This document shows, in pieces, positions 18,463 through 60,055 of a stretch of 64,000 bases of DNA. Made by a program: the position numbers and the translations under genes. The notes beneath the pieces were generated by a model that searched no databases, was not told the origin of the DNA, and worked only from the letters and a program-made list of their open reading frames with translations. Each line of letters opens with the position of its first letter. Position 1 is the stretch's first letter. Origin of the DNA: a virus; IMG/VR virus record IMGVR_UViG_3300033153_010139, positions 55,267-119,266 of that record; one strand, written 5' to 3'.

Positions 18463-19341
18463 GTGGCTGGTACACGTTCTACCCCGAAGCTCTACTCCTA
18501 CCAGGGTCGCCAGTGGCCGCTGCGCGATCTGGCCGAAGCGCACGGCATGGACGTGGGCACGCTCAGGAGCCGCCTCTACCGCGGACTGTCCTTGGAGGCG
18601 GCGCTGGCGCGGCCGGTGGGACCGGCGAACAACCCGAGGCGCAAGCAGGCACCGCACCACAAGACCGCCAAGCGGCTGCTCGGCAACACGTACGGCGAAC
18701 TGACTGTCGTTGGCTACGAGACCGGCCCCGGCTGGAAGTGGAAGTGCCGGTGCTCGTGCGGAGCCGCGGTTCTGCGCGGCCAGAGCGACATGCTGCAAGT
18801 CGCCAGGAACAGCGTCGGCGCGTCCTGCAGCACGGCCCAACACCGCGGCGGGCTACCGCCATTCGAGACCATGCCCGAGTACTCCGTCTGGGGTTCGATG
18901 CGCGCAAGGTGCAACAACCCGAACAACAAGCGCTATCCGCGCTACGGCGGACGCGGCATCAAGGTCTGCTCTCGGTGGAATGAACCGTACAACGGCTTCC
19001 TCCGGTTCGTGCGCGACATGGGCCGCAGGCCGTCGCCGGAGTTGACCATCGAGCGCGTTGACAACGACGGTGATTACGAGCCGGACAACTGCGAGTGGGC
19101 AAGCCGGAAGCAGCAGGCGCGGAACCGCGCAACCAACCGCCACCTGACCATCGACGGTGAAACGCGGACGCTGGCCGAGTGGAGCGAGTTGCACGGAATC
19201 CACTCGGCCACCATCAGCAACAGGCTGGTCCGGGGCTGGCCACCGCGTGTTGCCGTGTCAGCGCCGCCGATGAGCCCACGCGAGATGCAACAACTGAGCG
19301 CCGCAGTGCGGCGCGAGAAACGGAAGAGGGGCGAGACATGA
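18463..19341 (+). CDS. HNH-family homing endonuclease
   Basis: 292 residues from a GTG with GGAGG six bases upstream. The central nuclease region has YGGRGIKVCSRWNE, then ELTIERVDNDGDYEPDNCEW and a QQARNR tail, the free-standing phage HNH/AP2-like homing endonuclease pattern. It is flanked by two copies of a helix-turn-helix-like repeat (about 10-55 and 232-275; YQGRQWPLRDLAEAHGM, IDGETRTLAEWSELHG) likely to read DNA. A relative lies at 53272. Presumed mobile, acting on a nearby phage sequence. Confidence 0.8.
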   Translation: MAGTRSTPKLYSYQGRQWPLRDLAEAHGMDVGTLRSRLYRGLSLEAALARPVGPANNPRRKQAPHHKTAKRLLGNTYGELTVVGYETGPGWKWKCRCSCGAAVLRGQSDMLQVARNSVGASCSTAQHRGGLPPFETMPEYSVWGSMRARCNNPNNKRYPRYGGRGIKVCSRWNEPYNGFLRFVRDMGRRPSPELTIERVDNDGDYEPDNCEWASRKQQARNRATNRHLTIDGETRTLAEWSELHGIHSATISNRLVRGWPPRVAVSAPPMSPREMQQLSAAVRREKRKRGET

Positions 19342-20363
19342 GCATCAGCAGGGAGACGTGCCAGGCGGTCATCTTGGGAGCAGGTTGTGGCGATGCTCTC
19401 GGAGCGCCGACCGAGTTCCACCACATGGACAGCATTCGGCGCCAGTTCGGCCAGGACGGGATCCAGGAGCTGGTGCAGACGTCCGGCCGGTACACCGACG
19501 ACACGGCGATGTTGATCGCGCTGGCCGAGGGCCTGCTCGATGCGCACGGAGGCGCCCAGAGCTGGCGCGGCTACCCCGAAGCCCCAATGACCAGCCCGGA
19601 CTTCGTGATGCCCTACGTCGCCAGGAGTTTCGTCGAGTGGTCCAACTCCGACCAGACCGGCCGCGCTCCCGGCAACACCTGCCTGGGCGGCTGCCGCAAC
19701 ATGGAGAAGGGCATGTCCTGGCGCGAATCCGGGATCGCCCGCTCGAAGGGCTGCGGCGGGATCATGCGGGTGGCCCCCGTCGGGCTGGTCTACTCCGACG
19801 CCGGGGATGTCCTGAAGATCGCCCAAGCGCAGTGCACCTGCACACACGGACACCCGTCCGCCTACCAGGCTGCGCAGCTCGGGGCACTCGCTGTCCACCT
19901 GCTCGCGCGTCGCGGGCTCCCGGCATCCGACCTGCTCGAAACGCTCCGCGAGACGCTGGCCGTGATGCCCGACCCCGACCCCACGCTGACCGACCTGCTC
20001 TGGCGCGTCCGCGGGGCCCTCGATCTGGTCCACACAGGCAAGGCCGGGCCGCACGAGGTCCAGCAACACATGGCCGGCGGCCCCAAGAACCTGGGCGAGA
20101 GCTGGCACGGCGACGAGGCGCTGGCGTCGTCGCTGTTCTGCTTCCTGCTCGCGCACGAGGCCGGCGAGGGCTACATCGAGACCGTGCGCTACGGCGCCAA
20201 CACCGACGGCGACAGCGATTCGATCGCAACGATCGCGGGCGGCATGGCCGGAGCCTACTGGGGGCTGGGCGAGAAGGGCGTGCCCCAGAGCTGGATCGAC
20301 CAGGTCGAGAGTGCCGACTACCTGCTGACGCTGGCCGACCGGCTCCACGCGGCGGCGCTGTGA
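19338..20363 (+). CDS. ADP-ribosylglycohydrolase (DraG/ADPRH family)
   Basis: 341 residues, start ATG overlapping the upstream stop. All family motifs are present: GCGDALGAPTE (about 16-26), YTDDTAM (about 51-57), GCGGIMRVAPVGL (about 136-148), CTHGHPSA and NTDGDSDSIATIAGG near the C terminus. The Asp residues coordinate two Mg ions. The family removes ADP-ribose from protein Arg or from other acceptors. In a phage it could reverse ADP-ribosylation by host defence toxins or regulate host enzymes; that role is inference. Confidence 0.88.
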   Translation: MSISRETCQAVILGAGCGDALGAPTEFHHMDSIRRQFGQDGIQELVQTSGRYTDDTAMLIALAEGLLDAHGGAQSWRGYPEAPMTSPDFVMPYVARSFVEWSNSDQTGRAPGNTCLGGCRNMEKGMSWRESGIARSKGCGGIMRVAPVGLVYSDAGDVLKIAQAQCTCTHGHPSAYQAAQLGALAVHLLARRGLPASDLLETLRETLAVMPDPDPTLTDLLWRVRGALDLVHTGKAGPHEVQQHMAGGPKNLGESWHGDEALASSLFCFLLAHEAGEGYIETVRYGANTDGDSDSIATIAGGMAGAYWGLGEKGVPQSWIDQVESADYLLTLADRLHAAAL

Positions 20364-33658: not shown

Positions 33659-33903
33659 GCGACAACATCAACGAGCCGACCTACCCGATCGGTGCCCGAG
33701 TGCGCGTGTTCTGGACGTTCGGTGGCGACCCTCTGCCAGGCGGCTACACAGGCGTAATCGTTCAAGCGCCACGGTGGACGGCGATCGGCTGGGAAGCCTG
33801 CGTCCGCCGCGATGATCTGCCGGGGCAGTTCGACAAGTGGATCCAGGCGGATCACGTCTCTGCTCTCAGCGCCGTGGAATTGCTCGCGGAGCTGTCGCCA
33901 TGA
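33655..33903 (+). CDS. Small SH3-like protein ending in SAVD motif
   Basis: 82 residues, overlapping GTG. Beta-barrel-like (YPIGARVRVFWTFGGDPLPG, YTGVIVQAPRW, IQADHVS) and ends SALSAVELLAELSP. Confidence 0.65.
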   Translation: MSDNINEPTYPIGARVRVFWTFGGDPLPGGYTGVIVQAPRWTAIGWEACVRRDDLPGQFDKWIQADHVSALSAVELLAELSP

Positions 33904-34091
33904 GCTTCAAGCTGGGCGACCCTGTCGAATTCGAGGACGATCACGGCAACAAGCGCAAAGGCAAGGTCGTGAATCCAGGTCACGGAGAGCCGGAAGGCAT
34001 CGGCGTCGAGTGGACGGAGATGGCCTACTTCTCATCGCACGAGCTGCGGCACGTTTCTGCCGTAGACCGACTCGCGGAGCTGGCGTCGTGA
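33900..34091 (+). CDS. Mini SH3-like protein ending in SAVD motif
   Basis: 63 residues, overlapping ATG. KLGDPVEFEDDHGNKRKGKV, then GIGVEWTEMAYFSSHELRHV is a compact SH3-like fold and VSAVDRLAELAS is the exact C terminus. It looks like a minimal domain plus tag. Confidence 0.65.
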   Translation: MSFKLGDPVEFEDDHGNKRKGKVVNPGHGEPEGIGVEWTEMAYFSSHELRHVSAVDRLAELAS

Positions 34092-34492
34092 TCGTCAACG
34101 TCGAGACGGCCGAGGGCAACCGCGAGTTCATCGTACCGTCGCAGTGGCACGGTGCGGTGCTCTCACTGCTGGAGACCATCGACAGGTGGGTCATGTCCGG
34201 GGTCGGCGAGATGGTCCAACCGCGGCTGATCGACAGGGGTGTCAGGTCAATCGCGGTGATCAAGGTACTGCGGACCTACTACGAGATTACGCTCATGGAG
34301 GGGAAGCGCTACGTGGACCGCGCGCCGATTACGCTCCCCCCGCTCCCGCACATCAAGGCGCAGAAGATGCTCATCGAGCTGGAGAGCGTAGGCGCAAAGG
34401 CCGAGCTGCCCAGCGCCGTGGATCGCCTGGGAGCACTCGCAAAACACGACGCTGACGCGGCACGGGCCATGTCGGCACTGAACGGAGAATGA
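34088..34492 (+). CDS. Small protein with SAVD motif near C terminus
   Basis: 134 residues, overlapping GTG. An alpha/beta domain (FIVPSQWHGAVLSLLETIDR, SIAVIKVLRTYYEITLMEGK) then ELPSAVDRLGALAKHDADAA and a short helix. The start ATG of the next gene follows after one base. Confidence 0.65.
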   Translation: MIVNVETAEGNREFIVPSQWHGAVLSLLETIDRWVMSGVGEMVQPRLIDRGVRSIAVIKVLRTYYEITLMEGKRYVDRAPITLPPLPHIKAQKMLIELESVGAKAELPSAVDRLGALAKHDADAARAMSALNGE

Positions 34493-37962: not shown

Positions 37963-38304
37963 CTACGCCCCGGCTTTCCAAGTTTCCAGGCTGCGCATCT
38001 CGACCGGGCGGCCGTCCGTCTCGGCGCGCGCGATGCCGAGCTTCATGCCATCGCTGATGCCGAGGTCGGTGTAGACCGCCGTCAGCTCGGCGCGCTCCCC
38101 CCACGCGAGCCCGGCCTCGATGCCGAGCGTCCGCTCGGCGGGATCGTTGTCGTCCAGCACGCCGGGCTGCGTGTAGAGCAGGTGGGAAGCGTACGGCGCG
38201 TCGCCGCGCTTCAGGCAATCCCGCATCGCGGCCCTGGCGTACGCCTTGTTCTTCGCAACGTCGCCCGCGAACGGGCTCTCGATAAGGACGAGTCTGAAGC
38301 TCAT
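37963..38304 (-). CDS. DUF7768-like protein
   Basis: 113 residues, start ATG with SD AGGAG (an upstream in-frame ATG has no such site). RLVLIESPFAGDVAKNKAYA, SHLLYTQPGVLDD and VYTDLGISDGMKLGI are hallmarks of a small family common in phages and mobile elements (DUF7768 by recollection), with a nucleoside-deoxyribosyltransferase/TIR-like look. The biochemical role is not established. Confidence 0.72.
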   Translation of the reverse strand: MSFRLVLIESPFAGDVAKNKAYARAAMRDCLKRGDAPYASHLLYTQPGVLDDNDPAERTLGIEAGLAWGERAELTAVYTDLGISDGMKLGIARAETDGRPVEMRSLETWKAGA

Positions 38305-38388
38305 TCGTTCTCCTGATTTCAGGAACACGGGCGCCGGCCACGGGCGAGTATGGAAACCCGTGGCCGGCTCTGCCGCATACCGCATTGA

Positions 38389-38801
38389 TGGAGGCGCAGA
38401 GAGTCGAACTCTGGTCCCGTAACCGCTCCCTCCCAGCCTCTACGTGCGTAGTTCGCTGAAGGTCTCACCTACGAGCTGCAGCGAGCACAAAACTCGTAGG
38501 CCAGTCACAGAACTTTCTCGTCTCTTCCCCCTGCGACGCAGGGTTGAGACCAGCCCATCTTGTGGCCCTGCTTCAGCTCCCATGGGCGGGGGGCTGTAGC
38601 AGGGGGAGTCCCGTCTTAGACGAGGACGGCCTCGGTCGAGTCCACCGTCGCCATGAAGACGTCGATGTTGTCGTCCGAGAGCCACTCCGGGGTGCTGTTC
38701 GCGTTGGCAAATAGCGTTTTGCCGGTGGTTTTACGAGGCCAACCGGCGACCTCGGCACGCAACTGGGGCTTCGCAAGTCCGGTCGATACCGGGCCGCCCC
38801 C
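38389..38801 (-). ncRNA. ssrA: Transfer-messenger RNA (tmRNA)
   Basis: 413 nt. The 5' end GGGGGCG pairs with CGCCTCC near the 3' end, giving a seven-base-pair acceptor stem with a G3-U70 wobble, the alanine identity mark. The TΨC arm CAGAG-TTCGACT-CTCTG precedes the 3' strand, the discriminator is A and CCA is not encoded. The tag frame runs 38708 to 38616: resume codon GCC (Ala), then Asn, encoding ANANSTPEWLSDD... and ending ...TEAVLV before TAA. That is 30 residues, three times the usual length, and lacks the LAA degron. It would rescue stalled ribosomes and tag nascent peptides, probably rerouting them from ClpXP recognition of LAA. Confidence 0.88.
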
Positions 38802-38938: not shown

Positions 38939-39463
38939 CTAGAGCTTGCTCGCGACCCTGGCGATGACGTCGGCGATGGTGGCTTCGGTCGGTTCGAGGC
39001 CGCCGTTCCACGGCTGCGGGAACAAGCAGGCTTCGCCGCCGGCAGCGAGGAACGACGCGATATGCTCAGGCGAGTCGTCCACGAGCACGCGCGTAGGCTG
39101 GGCGAGCAGGTCTTTGCTGGAGGTGAGGTGGATGTCTCGGAATTGCCGGCCGAACATCTTGTCGAACCACATCTTCTTGCCGGCGTAAGACTGCCACGAC
39201 CAGCCGGGCTGGGTGACGAACAGTACGCGCCCGAGCGCCTTGAACCCGTTGTAGAGCTGGTCAAACCACGGGTAGACGTCCAGATCGCGCCAAAACTCCG
39301 GCCCGGCCGCGTCGATGACGCGCCAGAACTCGGTTGGCGTAACGCCGATGTAAGGCTCCAGCCGGTACGAGGTCATGTCCTTGACCTGGAAGTCAGAGCC
39401 GTGAGCGAGGAGAGCCCCGCGCATGAAATCGACGCACACGCCGTCTACGTCGAGCAGGATCAT
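38939..39463 (-). CDS. 5'(3')-deoxyribonucleotidase, HAD family
   Basis: 174 residues. HAD motif I LLDVDGVCVDFM (3-14), motif II FVTQPG region (about 82-87), Lys region and motif IV VLVDDSPEHI (about 126-135) match NT5C-type deoxyribonucleotidases. It dephosphorylates dNMPs, so it could remove host-type or unwanted nucleotides. It opposes the nucleoside kinases at 27611 and 28924 unless their specificities differ. ATG overlaps the upstream stop. Confidence 0.78.
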   Translation of the reverse strand: MILLDVDGVCVDFMRGALLAHGSDFQVKDMTSYRLEPYIGVTPTEFWRVIDAAGPEFWRDLDVYPWFDQLYNGFKALGRVLFVTQPGWSWQSYAGKKMWFDKMFGRQFRDIHLTSSKDLLAQPTRVLVDDSPEHIASFLAAGGEACLFPQPWNGGLEPTEATIADVIARVASKL

Positions 39464-39816
39464 ACGAGGTCTCCCAGTTTTTCTACGGCCGATGGTTCTG
39501 GTTGTACGCGGGTAATGCTGGCGCTAACGTCCAGTTCAGCGCCGCGGCCGTCGTTCATGGCCTCGGCACGGACGGTCAGCCGTTCGTTCGGTCTCACGCG
39601 CGCTTTGGCTATTATCATCGCTTCGCTAACCCAGGCGCGCCGGATGTAGACGGCGGTCTCGCTACGGACCGTGACGAATGCCGGTTCGGTGGCGTAGATC
39701 GCCAACTCCAGGTCAAGGGCGCCTGGCGGCGTCACGCACAGCTCACGGGCGGGCTCGCCCGTGAAGATCCGCAGCGCGACCGCTTCGGCGATTATGGAAC
39801 CGGCAGGCGGTCTCAC
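39460..39816 (-). CDS. Beta-rich protein ending in SAVD motif
   Basis: 118 residues, ATG overlapping the stop of the GroES-like gene. Strand-rich (ELAIYATEPAFVTVRSETAV) and ends EPSAVEKLGDLV, the motif at the exact C terminus. Function unknown. Confidence 0.65.
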   Translation of the reverse strand: MRPPAGSIIAEAVALRIFTGEPARELCVTPPGALDLELAIYATEPAFVTVRSETAVYIRRAWVSEAMIIAKARVRPNERLTVRAEAMNDGRGAELDVSASITRVQPEPSAVEKLGDLV

Positions 39817-40292
39817 CGGAGCTTGACGTGCGCGCTGGCCGCTTTCTTCCCGAGCAGATCGGTCTCGGCGAGGATGTGGTAGGTGAAGCCGTGCACGGTG
39901 ACGGGGATCATCGACCGGAACTTCTCGAAGACGACGATGTCGCCTTGCGCGACGCGCAGGGGGATCACGCTACCGTCGCCCTTCATGATGCCTGGGCCCG
40001 TGGCAAGCACGGTGCCGGTCATGGTTCGCCACTCGCCACGCCGTGCCGATTCGGGCAGGATGATCCCCCCGTCGGTCATCTCCTGCACGTCGTCGCGCTT
40101 GATGACGATCTTGTTGTCGAAGAGGTCGATAGGGAAGGGTGTCGTGGTCCAGTCCGGCTCCTCGGGCTTGGCGCCCTTCTTGGCCTCGGGCGCGGGCTCG
40201 GCCGGCTCGGCCTTGGGCGCCGGCGAGCCATCGGGCATGACAATCGAGGTTGGGCTTGGGCCGGGGGTTGGACCGGGGTTTAGTTCAGGCAC
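39813..40292 (-). CDS. GroES-like co-chaperonin with Pro-rich extension
   Basis: 159 residues. Residues 60-155 are a Cpn10 fold: DNKIVIKRDDVQEMTDGGII (the mobile loop), GTVLATGPG, GDIVVFEKF and YHILAETDLLG. The N-terminal 50 residues are Pro/Ala/Glu-rich and atypical. Phage co-chaperonins such as T4 gp31 retarget host GroEL to fold the capsid protein; the same role is inferred. The transcript may start from the TAGAAC box at 40384. Confidence 0.82.
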   Translation of the reverse strand: MPELNPGPTPGPSPTSIVMPDGSPAPKAEPAEPAPEAKKGAKPEEPDWTTTPFPIDLFDNKIVIKRDDVQEMTDGGIILPESARRGEWRTMTGTVLATGPGIMKGDGSVIPLRVAQGDIVVFEKFRSMIPVTVHGFTYHILAETDLLGKKAASAHVKLR

Positions 40293-53889: not shown

Positions 53890-55436
53890 CTGTGGACGAC
53901 ACGACTGAGCCTGCTATGGACAGTACGACTTTAGAGAGAGCGCTGCTCTACGGGGTGCTGCAAGGCGGCGTTGACGCCTACTTCAAGGCGTGCGAGATCG
54001 GAATCACCGCCGAGTTCACCGAGGACAAGGTCACCAAGGAGAAGAAGTACCGGTTCTTCGAGGAGGCCGAGGACGCCGGGGTGTTCGCCTTCTTCAAGCT
54101 GTTCCTTCGCAGAGAGAAGCGGCTGCCGTTGCCGCCGGAGATCAAGGCCGGCACAGGTGTTGCCCTTGTCGTGCCCGAGCAGCCCTACTCGGTTACGGTG
54201 TTCGCCGAGCGGCTGGTCAAGTGCGCGCTCCGTAACGCGATTAGCGAGCGGCTCGGGCGACTTGCCGAGCTGCTGGTCACGGACCCGGAGAAGGCTCGCA
54301 AGGCCATGGCCCAGCTGGTGCGCGACACGGCCTGGAGCTTGGGTCGGATCACGTCCTATACGGACCCGGGCACGGCGAAGGAGCTGCTCGCCGACTACGA
54401 GCGCGCGAAGGCGAGCACGGGCGAGCTGATGGGTCTCAGTTCGCCGTGGCTGGAGGTGGACAGGTACAGCCTCGGGCTCCAGCCGGGCGAGCTGACCGTG
54501 CTGCTGGCGAAGCGCAAAGTCGGTAAGACCTGGCTGCTGCTGGCCTGGTTCATGCACATCTTGCGCAACGATCTGAAGGCCGGCGAGTGCCTGCTGCTCG
54601 TGTCGATGGAGATGCCCAAGAAGCAGATCTACCGACGCATGGCGGCTATCGACATGAAGCTCAACTACGAGGACTTCCGTAGTGGGCGGCTGACCGTGGA
54701 TGAGGAGGCGCGGCTGTCGGCGTGGGCCGAGGAGATGCAGACGCCGGACCCGGATAGGCCGACGATCCACGTCGCCACGGCGGCCGAGGTTCGAGACGTT
54801 GCCGACATCTGCGACAAGGTCGCGGAGCTGAACCCGCGGGCGGTCGGCGTTGACGGTATGTACATCCTGGGTCGCGACCGCCGCATGGGGATGTGGGAGC
54901 GCACGATCCAGAACTGCTCTGAGATCAAGCTCGACCTGTGCGCGGAGATGGACATTGCGGTCCTGGCGACTACACAGCTCAAGGGGACCAAGGACAAGTA
55001 CTCGCTGGAGGCCGACGCTGATGACGCGGCCTACGCCAAGGCGATCGGCGATTGGGCGGACGCCATGCGCGGGCTGTTCATGTCCAAGAACTTCGAGCGC
55101 GACGGCATGCGGATGTTCACCTTCATGGAGAGCCGCGAGTTCCGGGGCATCGACTTCGAGATCTTCTTCAAGCTCACGACCATGAACTTTGGGTTCTCGC
55201 GCGTCGCGGACAAGCCGGCCGAGGAGGGCGAAGGCGAGGGCGAGAAGAAGGAAGACGAAGAAGGCGGCGACGCGAAGCCGCTGATCGACGGCACCGGCGA
55301 CGCCGCCCCGGAGGTGTCCATCGAAGGCGCTGCCGCCGAGGTCCCGGAGGAGGCGCCGGAGGCGGACGAGTCCGACGACGACGACGACGACGACGCCGGA
55401 GAGGATACCGGCGAGGTGGGGGTGGTGACCTTCTAG
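53886..55436 (+). CDS. DnaB-type replicative helicase
   Basis: 516 residues, overlapping GTG. The RecA-like core starts near 190: LQPGELTVLLAKRKVGKT is Walker A, then SMEMPKKQIYRRM (the DnaB SxEM motif), NPRAVGVDGMYIL (Walker B) and VLATTQLKG (motif H3-like). The N-terminal region is helical (LERALLYGVLQGGVDAYFKA). The tail is highly acidic with a run of seven Asp near residue 505. Unwinds DNA ahead of the replisome with the primase at 55436. Confidence 0.82.
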   Translation: MTVDDTTEPAMDSTTLERALLYGVLQGGVDAYFKACEIGITAEFTEDKVTKEKKYRFFEEAEDAGVFAFFKLFLRREKRLPLPPEIKAGTGVALVVPEQPYSVTVFAERLVKCALRNAISERLGRLAELLVTDPEKARKAMAQLVRDTAWSLGRITSYTDPGTAKELLADYERAKASTGELMGLSSPWLEVDRYSLGLQPGELTVLLAKRKVGKTWLLLAWFMHILRNDLKAGECLLLVSMEMPKKQIYRRMAAIDMKLNYEDFRSGRLTVDEEARLSAWAEEMQTPDPDRPTIHVATAAEVRDVADICDKVAELNPRAVGVDGMYILGRDRRMGMWERTIQNCSEIKLDLCAEMDIAVLATTQLKGTKDKYSLEADADDAAYAKAIGDWADAMRGLFMSKNFERDGMRMFTFMESREFRGIDFEIFFKLTTMNFGFSRVADKPAEEGEGEGEKKEDEEGGDAKPLIDGTGDAAPEVSIEGAAAEVPEEAPEADESDDDDDDDAGEDTGEVGVVTF

Positions 55437-56542
55437 TGGACGAGTCGGGTGTGGCTGACGTTTGCGATCACCTCGGACTGAGGCGGGGCAGGCCGTACAC
55501 CAACAGGCACGGGCAGCAGCAGATGATGATCGGCTGCCCGCTCGCGCCATGGCACCACGATGACCCGACGGACCGCAACAAGAGCTGCTCGGTGCTGCTC
55601 GTCCCAGATGGCCCAAGCTACGCCAGGTGCTTCTCGCTCGCGTGCGACTACAAGGGGAGCTTCTTCCGTCTGGTCCAGAAGGTCGTCATCAGCCACAAGA
55701 ACGCGCCGCCGGATCTGATTGAACTGCTCAAGTGGGTGGCGAAGGTTGACGAGGACACGATCGAGAAGCGCATCGGCCGTGTGCAGGTGAAGGTCGAGGC
55801 GGACAAGCAGGCGTGGCACCATGTCGAGGGCGCTCGCGCCGGGAACAGGCTGCACGAGCGCGACGTGCTCGACGAGTCTGTATTCGCGCCGTTCTCTGGG
55901 AAGTTGCCGCCCTACGCTGTGAACACGCGCGGCATCTCGATCAAGGCGGCGAAGGCGTGGAAGCTCGGTCACGACGTTGAGCGCGGGCGGCTCGTGTTCA
56001 CCGTGCGGCGCAGCGATGGCAAGCTGGTCGGGCTGACGGGGCGAATCCTTCCGACCGTGGAGGCCCGGCTACGGAACCAGGGCTACGAGCCGACGAAGTA
56101 CCACAACTACTCGGGGCTCGACAAAGGGCGCTACCTCTACGGGACGCACACCTGGTCGAAGGGGCTGCCGGTCGTCCTGGTCGAGGGGCCGATCGATGCC
56201 GTGCGCACGTGGCAAGCGCTGCACCCGCGCGCGAACATCGGCGCGACGCTCGGCGAAGGCTTCTCACAGGAGCACAGGCGGACGATCAACTCGGCCTGGC
56301 CGGAGGAGGTCTACCTGTTCCCGGATGGCGATGTCGCCGGTCGGCGCATGGCCGAGAAGCTCCATCACATCCTGAAGGGGTTCCGCGTGATCAGGCTCAT
56401 GCGCTGCCCTGTGCGTTACGTTGAGGACGACGAGACCGGCGAGTTGCACGAAGTGGCGAGCGACCCCGGCGAGATGACGAACGAGGAAATCGTGCACGCG
56501 TTCGAGACCGCGGACGTGATCCTGCACAAGATCAGGTGGTAG
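55436..56542 (+). CDS. DNA primase (TOPRIM type)
   Basis: 368 residues, GTG overlapping the stop of the helicase. N-terminal zinc-binding region MMIGCPLAPWHHDDPTDRNK, then SCSVLL and ARCFSLACDYKG (Cys/His pattern of DnaG-like CHC2). TOPRIM domain: LPVVLVEGPIDAVRTWQALH and VYLFPDGDVAGRRMAEKLH with Glu and two Asp conserved. Synthesises RNA primers; coupled to the helicase. Confidence 0.82.
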   Translation: MDESGVADVCDHLGLRRGRPYTNRHGQQQMMIGCPLAPWHHDDPTDRNKSCSVLLVPDGPSYARCFSLACDYKGSFFRLVQKVVISHKNAPPDLIELLKWVAKVDEDTIEKRIGRVQVKVEADKQAWHHVEGARAGNRLHERDVLDESVFAPFSGKLPPYAVNTRGISIKAAKAWKLGHDVERGRLVFTVRRSDGKLVGLTGRILPTVEARLRNQGYEPTKYHNYSGLDKGRYLYGTHTWSKGLPVVLVEGPIDAVRTWQALHPRANIGATLGEGFSQEHRRTINSAWPEEVYLFPDGDVAGRRMAEKLHHILKGFRVIRLMRCPVRYVEDDETGELHEVASDPGEMTNEEIVHAFETADVILHKIRW

Positions 56543-56559
56543 AAGTGGCAGGAGCGACG

Positions 56560-57837
56560 ATGACGAAGAAGACGAGGCCCACCGCGCACGAGGTGATCGC
56601 GCGGCTCGGCGCTGCTGCGGTGACCTCTACATCGGTGCCGCCGAAACCGGCTGTCGCTGCGCCCAAGGCCAAGGCCGAGCCTAAGCCTAAGCTCGGGGCG
56701 GTGCCGCCGCTGCCGACGGCCGGGTTGGGCGACTTCCTGGTCGCCGGCGCGAACATTGTAGTCGCGCCCGATGTCGCGGAGCGCGCCGTCGAGCGCGCCG
56801 TGGCGAGCGGAGAGATCCTCACCTTTGCCGAGCTGGGGTGTGACGAGACCGGGATGGCCGGCGAGGCGATGCTCGTGCACCCCGCCTTTGTGCGTGCCGC
56901 GGCGCGGCGAGGCTTCGCGTTCTACGCGGGGCCGAGCGGTCGTGTGCGGCGATTCTCTCTCGCGTCCGATGGGCAGGCGCCGGTTGCAGCGCCGAAGGCC
57001 GCCAGCGTCGAGGGCGCGTTCTATCTGAAGCCGGCTTGGTTTGACGACCTGGCCGACTTCGTGGAGCGCGGCGAGACGGTGCTGTTGATCGGGCCAGCTG
57101 GCGCCGGCAAGTCCGAGTCCGTGGAGCGGCTGTTTGCCGAGCGCGGGCAGCAGCTCCGCATCGTGCCCTGCCACCAGCGCATGACGGCGAATGACCTGGA
57201 AGGCGGGATCGATTTGGTTGTCGAGGATGGGCACCAGGTCACCCGCTTCACGCCCGCCGACCCGGCAACAGCCTCGACGGAGGGGCACGGGCTGCTGCTC
57301 GACGAGGCGGACGCGGCGCCGGCCGAGGCCATGTACGCGGTCTACCGGTTGATCGACGGCAAGCCGATGCACATCCTGCGTAAAGGCTTGGACGCGGTGA
57401 TCCCGCGCGACGACGCCTTCCGGGTGGTTGGCACGCAGAACACCGAGGGCCGTGGCGATGACCGCGGGCTGCACCATGGGAGGAGCTACCAGGACGAGGC
57501 GTTCCTGGACCGGTGGCAGAACACGATCCGCGTGGACTACCCGAAGAAGGCCGATGAGGTGCTGATCCTGCGCAAGCGGTGCGGGATCTCCGGCGTTCAG
57601 GCCGAGCGGATTGTGGACGCTGCCTCCTCGTTCCGCAATGCGCTCAAGCACGACGAGATCCAGCTGGTCTGCTCGCTCAGGCGTACGCTGTCGGTCGCCG
57701 GCAACATCGCGGCTGGCAGGAGCCCGGCGGCGAGCTGGGGGTTCGCGGTGCTCAACCGGGCGACGCGCGAGGATGCGGACAAGCTCCCGGAGACGCTGCA
57801 TAGGATCTACGGCGACAAGTGGCGAAAGACGTCGTGA
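56560..57837 (+). CDS. AAA+ ATPase, MoxR/CobS type
   Basis: 425 residues; ATG with GGAG chosen over a GTG eight codons upstream. Residues 1-60 are Ala/Lys/Pro-rich; a small domain (about 60-150) precedes Walker A LLIGPAGAGKSESVERLF (about 175-192), Walker B GLLLDEADAAPAEAMY and sensor FRVVGTQNTEGRGDDRGLHH. CobS-like enzymes need a CobT-like VWA partner, found at 58334. Second AAA+/VWA pair in this window. Confidence 0.8.
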   Translation: MTKKTRPTAHEVIARLGAAAVTSTSVPPKPAVAAPKAKAEPKPKLGAVPPLPTAGLGDFLVAGANIVVAPDVAERAVERAVASGEILTFAELGCDETGMAGEAMLVHPAFVRAAARRGFAFYAGPSGRVRRFSLASDGQAPVAAPKAASVEGAFYLKPAWFDDLADFVERGETVLLIGPAGAGKSESVERLFAERGQQLRIVPCHQRMTANDLEGGIDLVVEDGHQVTRFTPADPATASTEGHGLLLDEADAAPAEAMYAVYRLIDGKPMHILRKGLDAVIPRDDAFRVVGTQNTEGRGDDRGLHHGRSYQDEAFLDRWQNTIRVDYPKKADEVLILRKRCGISGVQAERIVDAASSFRNALKHDEIQLVCSLRRTLSVAGNIAAGRSPAASWGFAVLNRATREDADKLPETLHRIYGDKWRKTS

Positions 57838-58130: not shown

Positions 58131-58341
58131 CGGCGTGCGGGCGAACGAGTTTTCGGCGCCTCTCGACTCTGACGACTGCGATCACGGGAGCTGGGTGCGC
58201 ATTGTCGGCGAGTCGTGGAACGAGGGCATGGTCAAGATCGTCTGCGCGGGGTGCGGCTGGGCGCCGCTTCGCCCCTTCCCTGAGCGCGAGCGGCGTGACG
58301 CGGTGACCCGGCTTGCGGCTGTTGCAGGTACCGGTGATTGA
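58123..58341 (+). CDS. Mini-protein with zinc motif and SAVD-like end
   Basis: 72 residues. DCDHGSWVRIVGESWNEGMV, KIVCAGCGWAPL (CxxC). Ends RRDAVTRLAAVAGTGD, a distant copy of the tag more than 10 kb from the main cluster. Overlaps both neighbours. Confidence 0.6.
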   Translation: MIDGVRANEFSAPLDSDDCDHGSWVRIVGESWNEGMVKIVCAGCGWAPLRPFPERERRDAVTRLAAVAGTGD

Positions 58342-60055
58342 CCGTCGGGCGCTGATGAACGCGCAGCAGTCGGTGGTTGCCGGGCTGCTCGACGAGGAGA
58401 TCACCGTCGTCTTCGATGCCGAGACGCCGCACGCCGATCTGCGCGGCCGGGTGATGCACGCTCGCCCATTGCCGGAGGACGTTTCCGAGGAGGATCTCCT
58501 GCACCTGCGCGCGGACACCGATCACGAGATGGGCCACTTCGCGTGGTCGGACCCGGACGTGTTGGCGCGGTCCGCGAAGCGCCCGCTGTTGGCGTTGGCG
58601 CACAACGCTGTCGAGGACGGCTTCATCGAGCGCAAGCTGTCCGAGCGCTGGCTCGGCGTCGCGCAGACGCTCGCCAAGTCGAACGACAAGGTGTCGGCCG
58701 AGATCAAGGCGGCTGCCAAGAACACGCCCAGGAGCCGTCAAGAGCGCCTGCTGCACGCGCTGCAGTTCCTGGCGTTGGGCGAGACCGGCAAGCAGGTCTG
58801 CGACCGCCTTGGCGATGACATCGCGGACGGCGTCGCCGAGATCGCCGACCTGCTGCCGGCGCTGGCCGCTGTGGACGGCTCGGAGTCGGCCCTGCAGGCC
58901 GCGCGCGCCGTCCTGGCGCGCTGGCAGTGGGGTAGCAAGTCGCGCGGCAAGAGCAAGAAGAAGAAAGGGAAGGGGAAGGACAAGGACAAGAAGGGCAGCG
59001 CTGCCCCAGAGCAGGCGAGGGATGAGAAGTACCGCGAGCGCGAGGATCGCGTGGCCAAGCGGATCAAGAAGCGCGCGTCGGTTTCGGACGCGCGCAAGAA
59101 GCTCATCCGCGAGATGAAGTTCGAGGGCGCCGTTACCTACAACCCGCGCACGGACGCCGACGTCGTGGAGCGGCTGGTGGTCAAGCGCAAGGTGCGGGAG
59201 GCTGCGCCGGCGTTCCTGCGCTCCGTGCGTGCCGTGGCCGCGCCGCTGCGGCGCAGGCTCCTGATGGAGTTCCGAGGTCTCGGGCAGCGTACTGAGCACG
59301 CGCACGCGTCCGGTGATCTGGACCGTAGTGTCCTGCACCAGGTGGCGCTCGGCAGCACGAACGTCTTCACACGCGAGATCCCGACGACCGTCGTCGATGC
59401 CGACGTGACCCTTCTGGTGGACGTGTCCGGTTCGATGACGAGCTATCACGACGACGTGCCGCGCATCTTCACGGCCGCGCAGGCCGCAGCCGCGTTCAGC
59501 CTGGTGCTCGACGCGCTGCGTATTCCGCACGAGTGCCTGGCGTTCACGACGGCCACGAAGGTTTCGACGGCGGCGCAGGCGAGCTTCTACGACGGCACCT
59601 ACCAGCGCGTGCGCCCGCTTCGGCACCTGATCGTGAAGTCGGCCGACCAGTCGTTCCGCCAGGCGCTTCCCAACTTCGTGGCGCTGGCGTGCTTCCGCGG
59701 GTGTTCGGAGAACGTGGACGGCGAGGCGGTGCTCTGGGCTGCGCAGCGGTTGGCCAGCCGCTCCAGGGCCGGCCGTAGGCCGTTCCTGTTCGCCTTTTCC
59801 GACGGCGAGCCCGCGAGCGTGCCCGAGCGCAGCCGGCTGCTCGAATGGCACCTCAAGCGCGCATTGGCGCGGGTCGAGAAGGCCGGGATCACGGTGCTCG
59901 GCGTCGGGATCGCCACCGATTCGGTGGCGCAATTCTACGAGCGCCACCTCGTGATTGACGAGCTAACGGACCTAGTTGGAACTAGTTACAACCTGATCCG
60001 GCAAGCGCTGCGATCTTCCACGAAAACCCCGTCAAGAGTCAGAGGGGCGGGGTAG
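58334..60055 (+). CDS. CobT-like VWA-domain protein with HExxH-type motif
   Basis: 573 residues, GTG. Residues 1-180: LHLRADTDHEMGHFAWSDPD, with HEMGH (HExxH), and helical segments. A Lys-rich linker (SRGKSKKKKGKGKDKDKKG, about 208-226) follows. The C-terminal VWA: VDADVTLLVDVSGSMTSYHD with MIDAS DVSGSM and ITVLGVGIATDSVAQFYER. Same layout (zinc motif, linker, VWA) as the protein at 30806 but poorly similar. Partner of the ATPase at 56560. Confidence 0.78.
   Translation: MIDRRALMNAQQSVVAGLLDEEITVVFDAETPHADLRGRVMHARPLPEDVSEEDLLHLRADTDHEMGHFAWSDPDVLARSAKRPLLALAHNAVEDGFIERKLSERWLGVAQTLAKSNDKVSAEIKAAAKNTPRSRQERLLHALQFLALGETGKQVCDRLGDDIADGVAEIADLLPALAAVDGSESALQAARAVLARWQWGSKSRGKSKKKKGKGKDKDKKGSAAPEQARDEKYREREDRVAKRIKKRASVSDARKKLIREMKFEGAVTYNPRTDADVVERLVVKRKVREAAPAFLRSVRAVAAPLRRRLLMEFRGLGQRTEHAHASGDLDRSVLHQVALGSTNVFTREIPTTVVDADVTLLVDVSGSMTSYHDDVPRIFTAAQAAAAFSLVLDALRIPHECLAFTTATKVSTAAQASFYDGTYQRVRPLRHLIVKSADQSFRQALPNFVALACFRGCSENVDGEAVLWAAQRLASRSRAGRRPFLFAFSDGEPASVPERSRLLEWHLKRALARVEKAGITVLGVGIATDSVAQFYERHLVIDELTDLVGTSYNLIRQALRSSTKTPSRVRGAG

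Follow-up and report, generated by a model that had tools for sequence, protein, structure and literature searches.

Bacterial proteases read non-polar C-terminal ends, and in the tags added by tmRNA the usual end is LAA. In a 2025 database with 97,179 tmRNAs, tags of 10 residues are the most frequent (PMC11915505). Among the described phage tmRNAs close to the one reported here are those of Bixzunavirus (mycobacteriophage cluster C) and of Phabba. The Bixzunavirus phages Alice and LinStu encode the tag ATDTDATVTDAEIEAFFAEEAAALV, with the tmRNA annotated as such in Alice, and the Phabba tag is ANDNDATVTEADFAEIEAFANDSVLV. These tags have 25–26 residues, including seven Asp or Glu and no Lys or Arg, share an EIEAF core, and end in ALV (Bixzunavirus) or VLV (Phabba and one more phage). 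Their RNAs sit within tRNA arrays, the hosts are Mycobacterium, and no phage SmpB was found. The Gordonia phage Orchid (Orchidvirus) encodes an acidic tag of 29 residues, ADDNVDADYVAAGIADVEAFLADSVLAKA. Among bacteria, the ssrA tags of Mollicutes (Mesoplasma florum) are also long; they end in NYAFA and are read by Lon in hosts without active ClpXP. Long phage tags of the VLV type are a known but little-studied kind, and our literature search on the function of long phage tags found no paper.

Here we describe a tmRNA gene in a 64,000-nucleotide stretch (the window; positions 55,267 to 119,266) of the virus record IMGVR_UViG_3300033153_010139. Like the RNAs of Bixzunavirus and Phabba, it is phage-encoded, no phage SmpB was found with it, and it specifies a long acidic tag with an LV end. 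Indeed, the tag (30 residues, six Asp or Glu, no Lys or Arg, VLV end) has the length of at least 25 residues, the acidity and the LV end of the Bixzunavirus type, and lacks the C-terminal LAA or xAA of the canonical ssrA degron. It differs from them in that the tmRNA stands outside any tRNA array, the tag has no significant match to the EIEAF core, and the Bixzunavirus scaffold is another one (the Alice and LinStu tmRNAs score 74–77 Rfam bits). The RNA scaffolds nearest to the window are those of two large phages, G001 and G002, and scaffold orthology with Bixzunavirus does not hold. The Orchid tag is likewise acidic and without an AA end, but it ends in AKA and its RNA scaffold is poorer in G+C. 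The Mollicute tags share the length and the non-LAA end, with no sequence likeness noted. Homology between the window tag and mycobacteriophage tags, plausible by eye, was rejected: local alignment to mycobacteriophage and Gordonia phage tags gave uncorrected P values of 0.02–0.67 (0.09 for Alice, 0.67 for Phabba, 0.34 for the survey sequence L104; best for Orchid, 0.017 uncorrected), which is not significant, so that we claim a likeness of class (length, acidity, end) and not descent.

Results

The tmRNA gene

The window contains a complete one-piece tmRNA (ssrA) gene of 413 nt without CCA, on the minus strand at 38801..38389. The Rfam match to RF00023 covers the full model (1–374) at 38801..38386 with 157.9 bits (gathering score 47) and E 2.5e-62; ARAGORN reports the gene at 38801..38389 with the tag ANANSTPEWLSDDNIDVFMATVDSTEAVLV. 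The 119,266-base record contains no other tmRNA. The tmRNA strand folds with a z-score of −4.35 and is more stable than 100 of 100 shuffles. A chance or artefactual origin is ruled out by the Rfam match, the folding z-score and the coding signature of the tag, and, as far as its sequence tells, the tmRNA is real and probably functional.

A previous sequence-only reading had proposed a phage-encoded tmRNA at this locus from a G3-U70 acceptor stem, a T arm, a GCC-AAC resume site and an in-frame TAA, with a tag about three times the usual length that ends in VLV and not LAA. All four elements are present in the sequence, the ARAGORN frame returns the 30 residues and the VLV end, and the covariance-model search suggested by that reading as a check gave the full-length match above, at the same locus and with the same tag as ARAGORN.

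The RNA resembles standard bacterial tmRNA (RF00023, E. coli) in its overall fold, the G3-U70 pair, pseudoknots 1, 2 and 4, the A at −4 and the stop in helix 5 (Table 1), whereas the E. coli-type tag has about 10 residues and an LAA end. The acceptor stem carries G3-U70, the alanine identity pair; CCA is absent from the gene sequence, and TCA stands 3′ of the discriminator A. Pseudoknot 1 shows compensatory changes in the orthologues of G001 and G002 (C48-G68 to A-U, and several pairs of stem 2), and the second stem of pseudoknot 2 is unchanged in both. At the position of pseudoknot 3 a second stem was looked for and none was identified, unlike at pseudoknots 1, 2 and 4. The resume codon is GCC, followed by AAC. 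In E. coli, the frame is determined by A86, four nucleotides 5′ of the resume codon (PMC2481249), and the window RNA has an A at this place, like the other long-tag tmRNAs that were checked. Helix 5 holds the final codons of the tag together with its stop.

Table 1. Elements of the tmRNA and neighbouring genes, in window coordinates
Feature	Position	Strand	Details
GroES-like (Cpn10) gene	39813..40292	minus	PF00166; first in groES-nucleotidase-tmRNA block
5′(3′)-deoxyribonucleotidase-like (NT5C) gene	38939..39463	minus	Pfam PF06941; directly precedes tmRNA
Acceptor stem, 5′ strand GGGGGCG	38795..38801	minus	7/7 pairs with 38390-38396; carries G3
Pseudoknot 1, CGAGG/CCTCG + GCCGGT/ACCGGC	38721..38754	minus	5/5 + 6/6 pairs
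A at −4 before resume codon (= E. coli A86, frame determinant)	38712..38712	minus	present
Tag frame, 30 codons, ANANSTPEWLSDDNIDVFMATVDSTEAVLV	38619..38708	minus	ARAGORN; A-4; GC3 30/30
Tag stop TAA, helix 5 loop	38616..38618	minus	in frame, after 30 codons
Helix 5, GTCC-T-CGTC/GACG-GGAC	38608..38627	minus	pairing by sequence; MFE model
Pseudoknot 2, CCCTGC/GCAGGG + GCCCAT/ATGGGC	38553..38604	minus	6/6 + 6/6 pairs
Pseudoknot 3 position	38520..38550	minus	GTCTC/GAGAC stem enclosing CCCTGC/GCAGGG hairpin
Pseudoknot 4, CCTACGAG/CTCGTAGG + CGCTG/CAGCG	38454..38500	minus	8/8 + 5/5 pairs
T arm CAGAG-TTCGACT-CTCTG	38397..38413	minus	5/5 pairs; Rfam alignment
Acceptor stem, 3′ strand CGCCTCC + discriminator A	38389..38396	minus	7/7 pairs
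DUF7768/nucleoside 2-deoxyribosyltransferase-like gene	37963..38385	minus	starts 3 bases past tmRNA 3′ end

The tag as coding sequence

The G+C fractions at the three codon positions of the tag are 0.57, 0.40 and 1.00, with G or C at all 30 third positions, a value reached by none of 20,000 shuffles. In the genes of the window mean GC3 is 0.82, and 3% of 30-codon stretches reach 100%; the tag therefore fits phage coding sequence and not chance. Accordingly, the 30-codon tag reads as genuine coding sequence of the phage, on the strength of the A at −4, the TAA in the loop of helix 5 and the GC3/GC2 signature, and these elements also rule out a wrong call of the tag frame.

The exact tag is known from one genome. 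That it was copied from one of the phage's own proteins was considered and dropped, as tblastn of the record returned nothing above chance. Used as a direct query against phage records, the tag gave no match; the Bxz1 tag was missed as well, although Alice and LinStu encode it, and such direct searches are thus insensitive for short queries.

The phage and the surroundings of the gene

The record covers 119 kb of a large, uncultured phage with a contractile tail. It has matches to tail sheath, baseplate and tape-measure proteins, a DnaB helicase and a polymerase processivity factor, and the contig is probably a partial genome. The minus-strand gene order around the tmRNA is GroES-like gene, small ORF, NT5C nucleotidase, tmRNA and DUF7768/deoxyribosyltransferase, with 137 bp between nucleotidase and tmRNA. 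Promoter- or terminator-like sites were scanned for and none were found. The record has one tRNA gene. Hints to the host conflict, the tail sheath being nearest to that of PhiPA3-type Pseudomonas phages and a neighbour gene nearest to genes of Gordonia and Rhizobium phages; a WhiB host marker was found in none of G000–G002.

Several other genes deserve mention. The record has two distinct tail-sheath genes (L002:16697-19441 and L003:17438-19012), the latter encoding a sheath 38% identical to that of the Pseudomonas jumbo phage PhiPA3. At 33812-34492 (+) the window encodes a predicted protein of 226 residues whose C-terminal domain is that of ribosomal L7/L12 (PF00542), so a predicted bL12-like protein and a tmRNA occur together in one phage genome. 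An ADP-ribosylglycohydrolase-family gene (19179-20363, +; PF03747, E 4e-60) possibly counters a host ADP-ribosylation defence. A CobS-like ATPase and CobT-like pair (phrog_249, phrog_17276) lies at 56536-57837 and 58313-60055 (+).

A tag changed on a conserved scaffold

Two relatives, G001 (275 kb) and G002 (160 kb), were found in IMG/VR through their DnaB proteins, which are about 60% identical to that of the window phage; DnaB searches and a search with the pseudoknot 2 motif returned these two only. In the DnaB of G002 (L006:8210-10978), an intein-like stretch of about 400 residues interrupts the Walker A motif (RKVGK/SIPDYT...ITHN/TW, slashes at the borders); the DnaB proteins of G001 and the window phage do not have it.

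Each relative carries a tmRNA, and its tag, ANAPVRLAA, has nine residues. Outside the tag, the window RNA is about 70% identical to both. Among the tmRNAs collected, those of G001 and G002 align to it with scores of 92–106 and the next best with 38. Furthermore, groES, nucleotidase and tmRNA follow in the same order and on the same strand in all three phages. Being the nearest RNAs and lying in this collinear block, the tmRNAs are taken as orthologous. They have the resume region GCC-AAC-GC in common, and in all of them helix 5 contains the final tag codons together with the stop. The window tag is longer by 21 codons and has VLV where the relatives have LAA. Since the RNAs are orthologous and the tags different, the tag has changed on a conserved scaffold.

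The phages also differ in what lies next to the gene. In G001 and G002 (L200, L201), 11–14 kb with about 33 tRNA genes separate the nucleotidase from the tmRNA, which ends this array, and the array is missing from the window phage. That the tmRNA is present although the array is absent suggests a role of its own.

Long tags among phage tmRNAs

Phage tags were surveyed by pattern scans of IMG/VR and in a handful of named phages; where ARAGORN failed, we set the frame manually. The 60 distinct tags have a median length of 12 residues and a maximum of 36; 16 have at least 20 residues and 10 at least 25. Five end in Val, none of them shorter than 25 residues (Fisher P 5e-5; 0.002 with three related mycobacteriophage-type tags counted as one), and an AA end is missing from 8 of the 10 tags that reach 25 residues compared with 2 of the 50 shorter ones (P 7e-7; 2e-5 after the same collapse). 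These P values serve only as a guide, because the patterns used bias the sample and its rows share ancestry. In all 60 tags, as in every well-formed tag surveyed, the terminal residue is Ala or Val.

The sequence-only reading had pointed to long-tag tmRNAs in some mycobacteriophages, a precedent that the tags retrieved from Alice, LinStu and Phabba substantiate, and had proposed a comparison with known phage tags, which gave the ends ALV (Bixzunavirus), VLV (Phabba) and AKA (Orchid). In one respect it overstated the case: tags that are long and end otherwise are not singular among phages, with 16 of the 60 reaching 20 residues and five ending in Val.

ARAGORN misreads or misses the long tags in L039, L074, L104, L046, L211 and L214, and long-tag phage tmRNAs are consequently under-counted; missed altogether are the tmRNAs of L211 (minus), L214 (plus), L046 (minus) and L104 (minus), with tags of 36, 32, 29 and 26 residues. 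A separate observation concerns a phage tmRNA-like gene at L037:14074-14310, which has a normal pseudoknot 1 but no recognisable normal 3′ tRNA-like half. Its long tag frame, AKNDEFDVPFDLVVAAGFGGGPSARAWN, resembles ANDEFDVPFDLIEANGFGGYGARALAA of L207, and the gene is perhaps decaying or split.

Discussion

We consider it rather likely that the window gene yields a working trans-translation RNA, which works with the SmpB of the host and attaches a tag that is re-tuned but still proteolytic. What the sequence shows is how the RNA is built, its reading frame with the coding signature, the orthology and the difference between the tags; expression, tagging and any protease that reads the tag are inferred. 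Host alanyl-tRNA synthetase, EF-Tu and SmpB would charge the phage tmRNA and bring it to stalled ribosomes on broken mRNAs, which are expected to be plentiful during infection; host factors are assumed since no SmpB, ClpP or Lon gene was found in the record or in G001 and G002. Translation would resume on GCC-AAC, append Ala and the 30 residues, and terminate at TAA, whereupon the ribosome would be recycled. Ribosome rescue would follow from the intact RNA itself. The long acidic VLV tag would act as a degron re-tuned to a different affinity or routing than the host tag, and the tagged proteins, given their non-polar end, would still be proteolysed.

A different outcome would be rescue without destruction, whereby host ClpXP ignores the tag, ribosomes are recycled and the tagged proteins, mostly those of the phage, are spared, comparable to laboratory tags ending in DD, which stabilise proteins (PMC2584231). 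The window tag is without the LAA end of its orthologues, the missing AA end is typical of surveyed tags of at least 25 residues (8/10 against 2/50), and H. pylori needs ribosome rescue while tagging is dispensable for its growth (PMC2584231). Escape from host ClpXP/SspB, as the sequence-only reading had proposed, may occur. However, the end of the window tag is still non-polar, and no well-formed surveyed tag has a charged end, which unconstrained drift or selection for stable products would permit. The restriction to Ala or Val argues against a simple loss of the degron and makes us prefer a re-tuned degron to a stabilising tag. Indeed, E. coli tag variants ending in Val (AAV) are still ClpXP substrates, though degraded more slowly (PMC9382460), and we regard sparing of the tagged proteins as unlikely. 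Routing to a protease other than ClpXP (Lon, FtsH, Tsp or ClpC/ClpA), in the way Lon reads the long Mesoplasma tag with its NYAFA end (PMC9382460; PMC8138137), would agree with the recurrence of long acidic LV-ended tags among mycobacteriophages. Like rescue without destruction, it is a live rival, though quite an unlikely one to us, as no ClpP or Lon gene was found in the phage, no motif common to the window and Mollicute tags was noted, and the similarity to mycobacteriophage and Gordonia phage tags is unconvincing at the uncorrected P values given above.

Two further explanations would leave the tag without importance or the gene without a phage origin. The phage RNA could be a decoy in competition for SmpB or ribosomes, so that trans-translation by the host is blocked, the tag being unimportant. 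The mycobacteriophage DS6A tmRNA, which consists of the tRNA-like domain only, inhibits tmRNA in E. coli (PMC4131195; PMC11915505). A decoy would need no mRNA-like half, yet that of the window RNA is complete, with a 30-codon coding signature and a conserved A at −4 and stop, which makes the decoy improbable. ssrA genes are common integration sites, and L007, L008, L013 and other survey contigs carry bacterial-type tmRNAs with standard tags, so the gene might be a scar, a host ssrA gene or fragment acquired at an integration site. Against this, it is a complete gene inside a phage block with orthologues in two other large phages, and the 53 bacterial contigs that share the pseudoknot 2 motif held no tmRNA of the window kind, only one of them having a tmRNA at all (tag VNPQFALAA). 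With no near-identical bacterial ssrA among these, a position internal to the block and orthologues found only in phages, a prophage attachment scar was rejected, and we give a host-derived scar hardly any credence.

Beyond the preferred explanation of a re-tuned degron, we would tentatively raise, as a doubtful but possible generalisation, that long non-AA tags mark a distinct class of tmRNA that arose repeatedly and independently in phages, with the tag as an addressed signal and not a generic LAA degron. Such a class would comprise tags of 25–36 residues, usually acidic, directed at a host protease, an adaptor or another partner, or acting as stabilisers, and in the window lineage the switch to a long tag would have taken place on an otherwise conserved RNA.

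Similar tags already exist in a few other phages, and the window case is a natural experiment and not a new system. What gives it value is that the tags of orthologous RNAs differ, and that very long tags without an AA end recur in phages. Two related RNA scaffolds with opposite tags, nine residues ending in LAA and 30 residues ending in VLV, make a clean pair for the role of the tag, which bears on the open question why phages carry tmRNA. Should long tags prove to be addressed signals, phages would offer natural degrons whose protease specificity is new.
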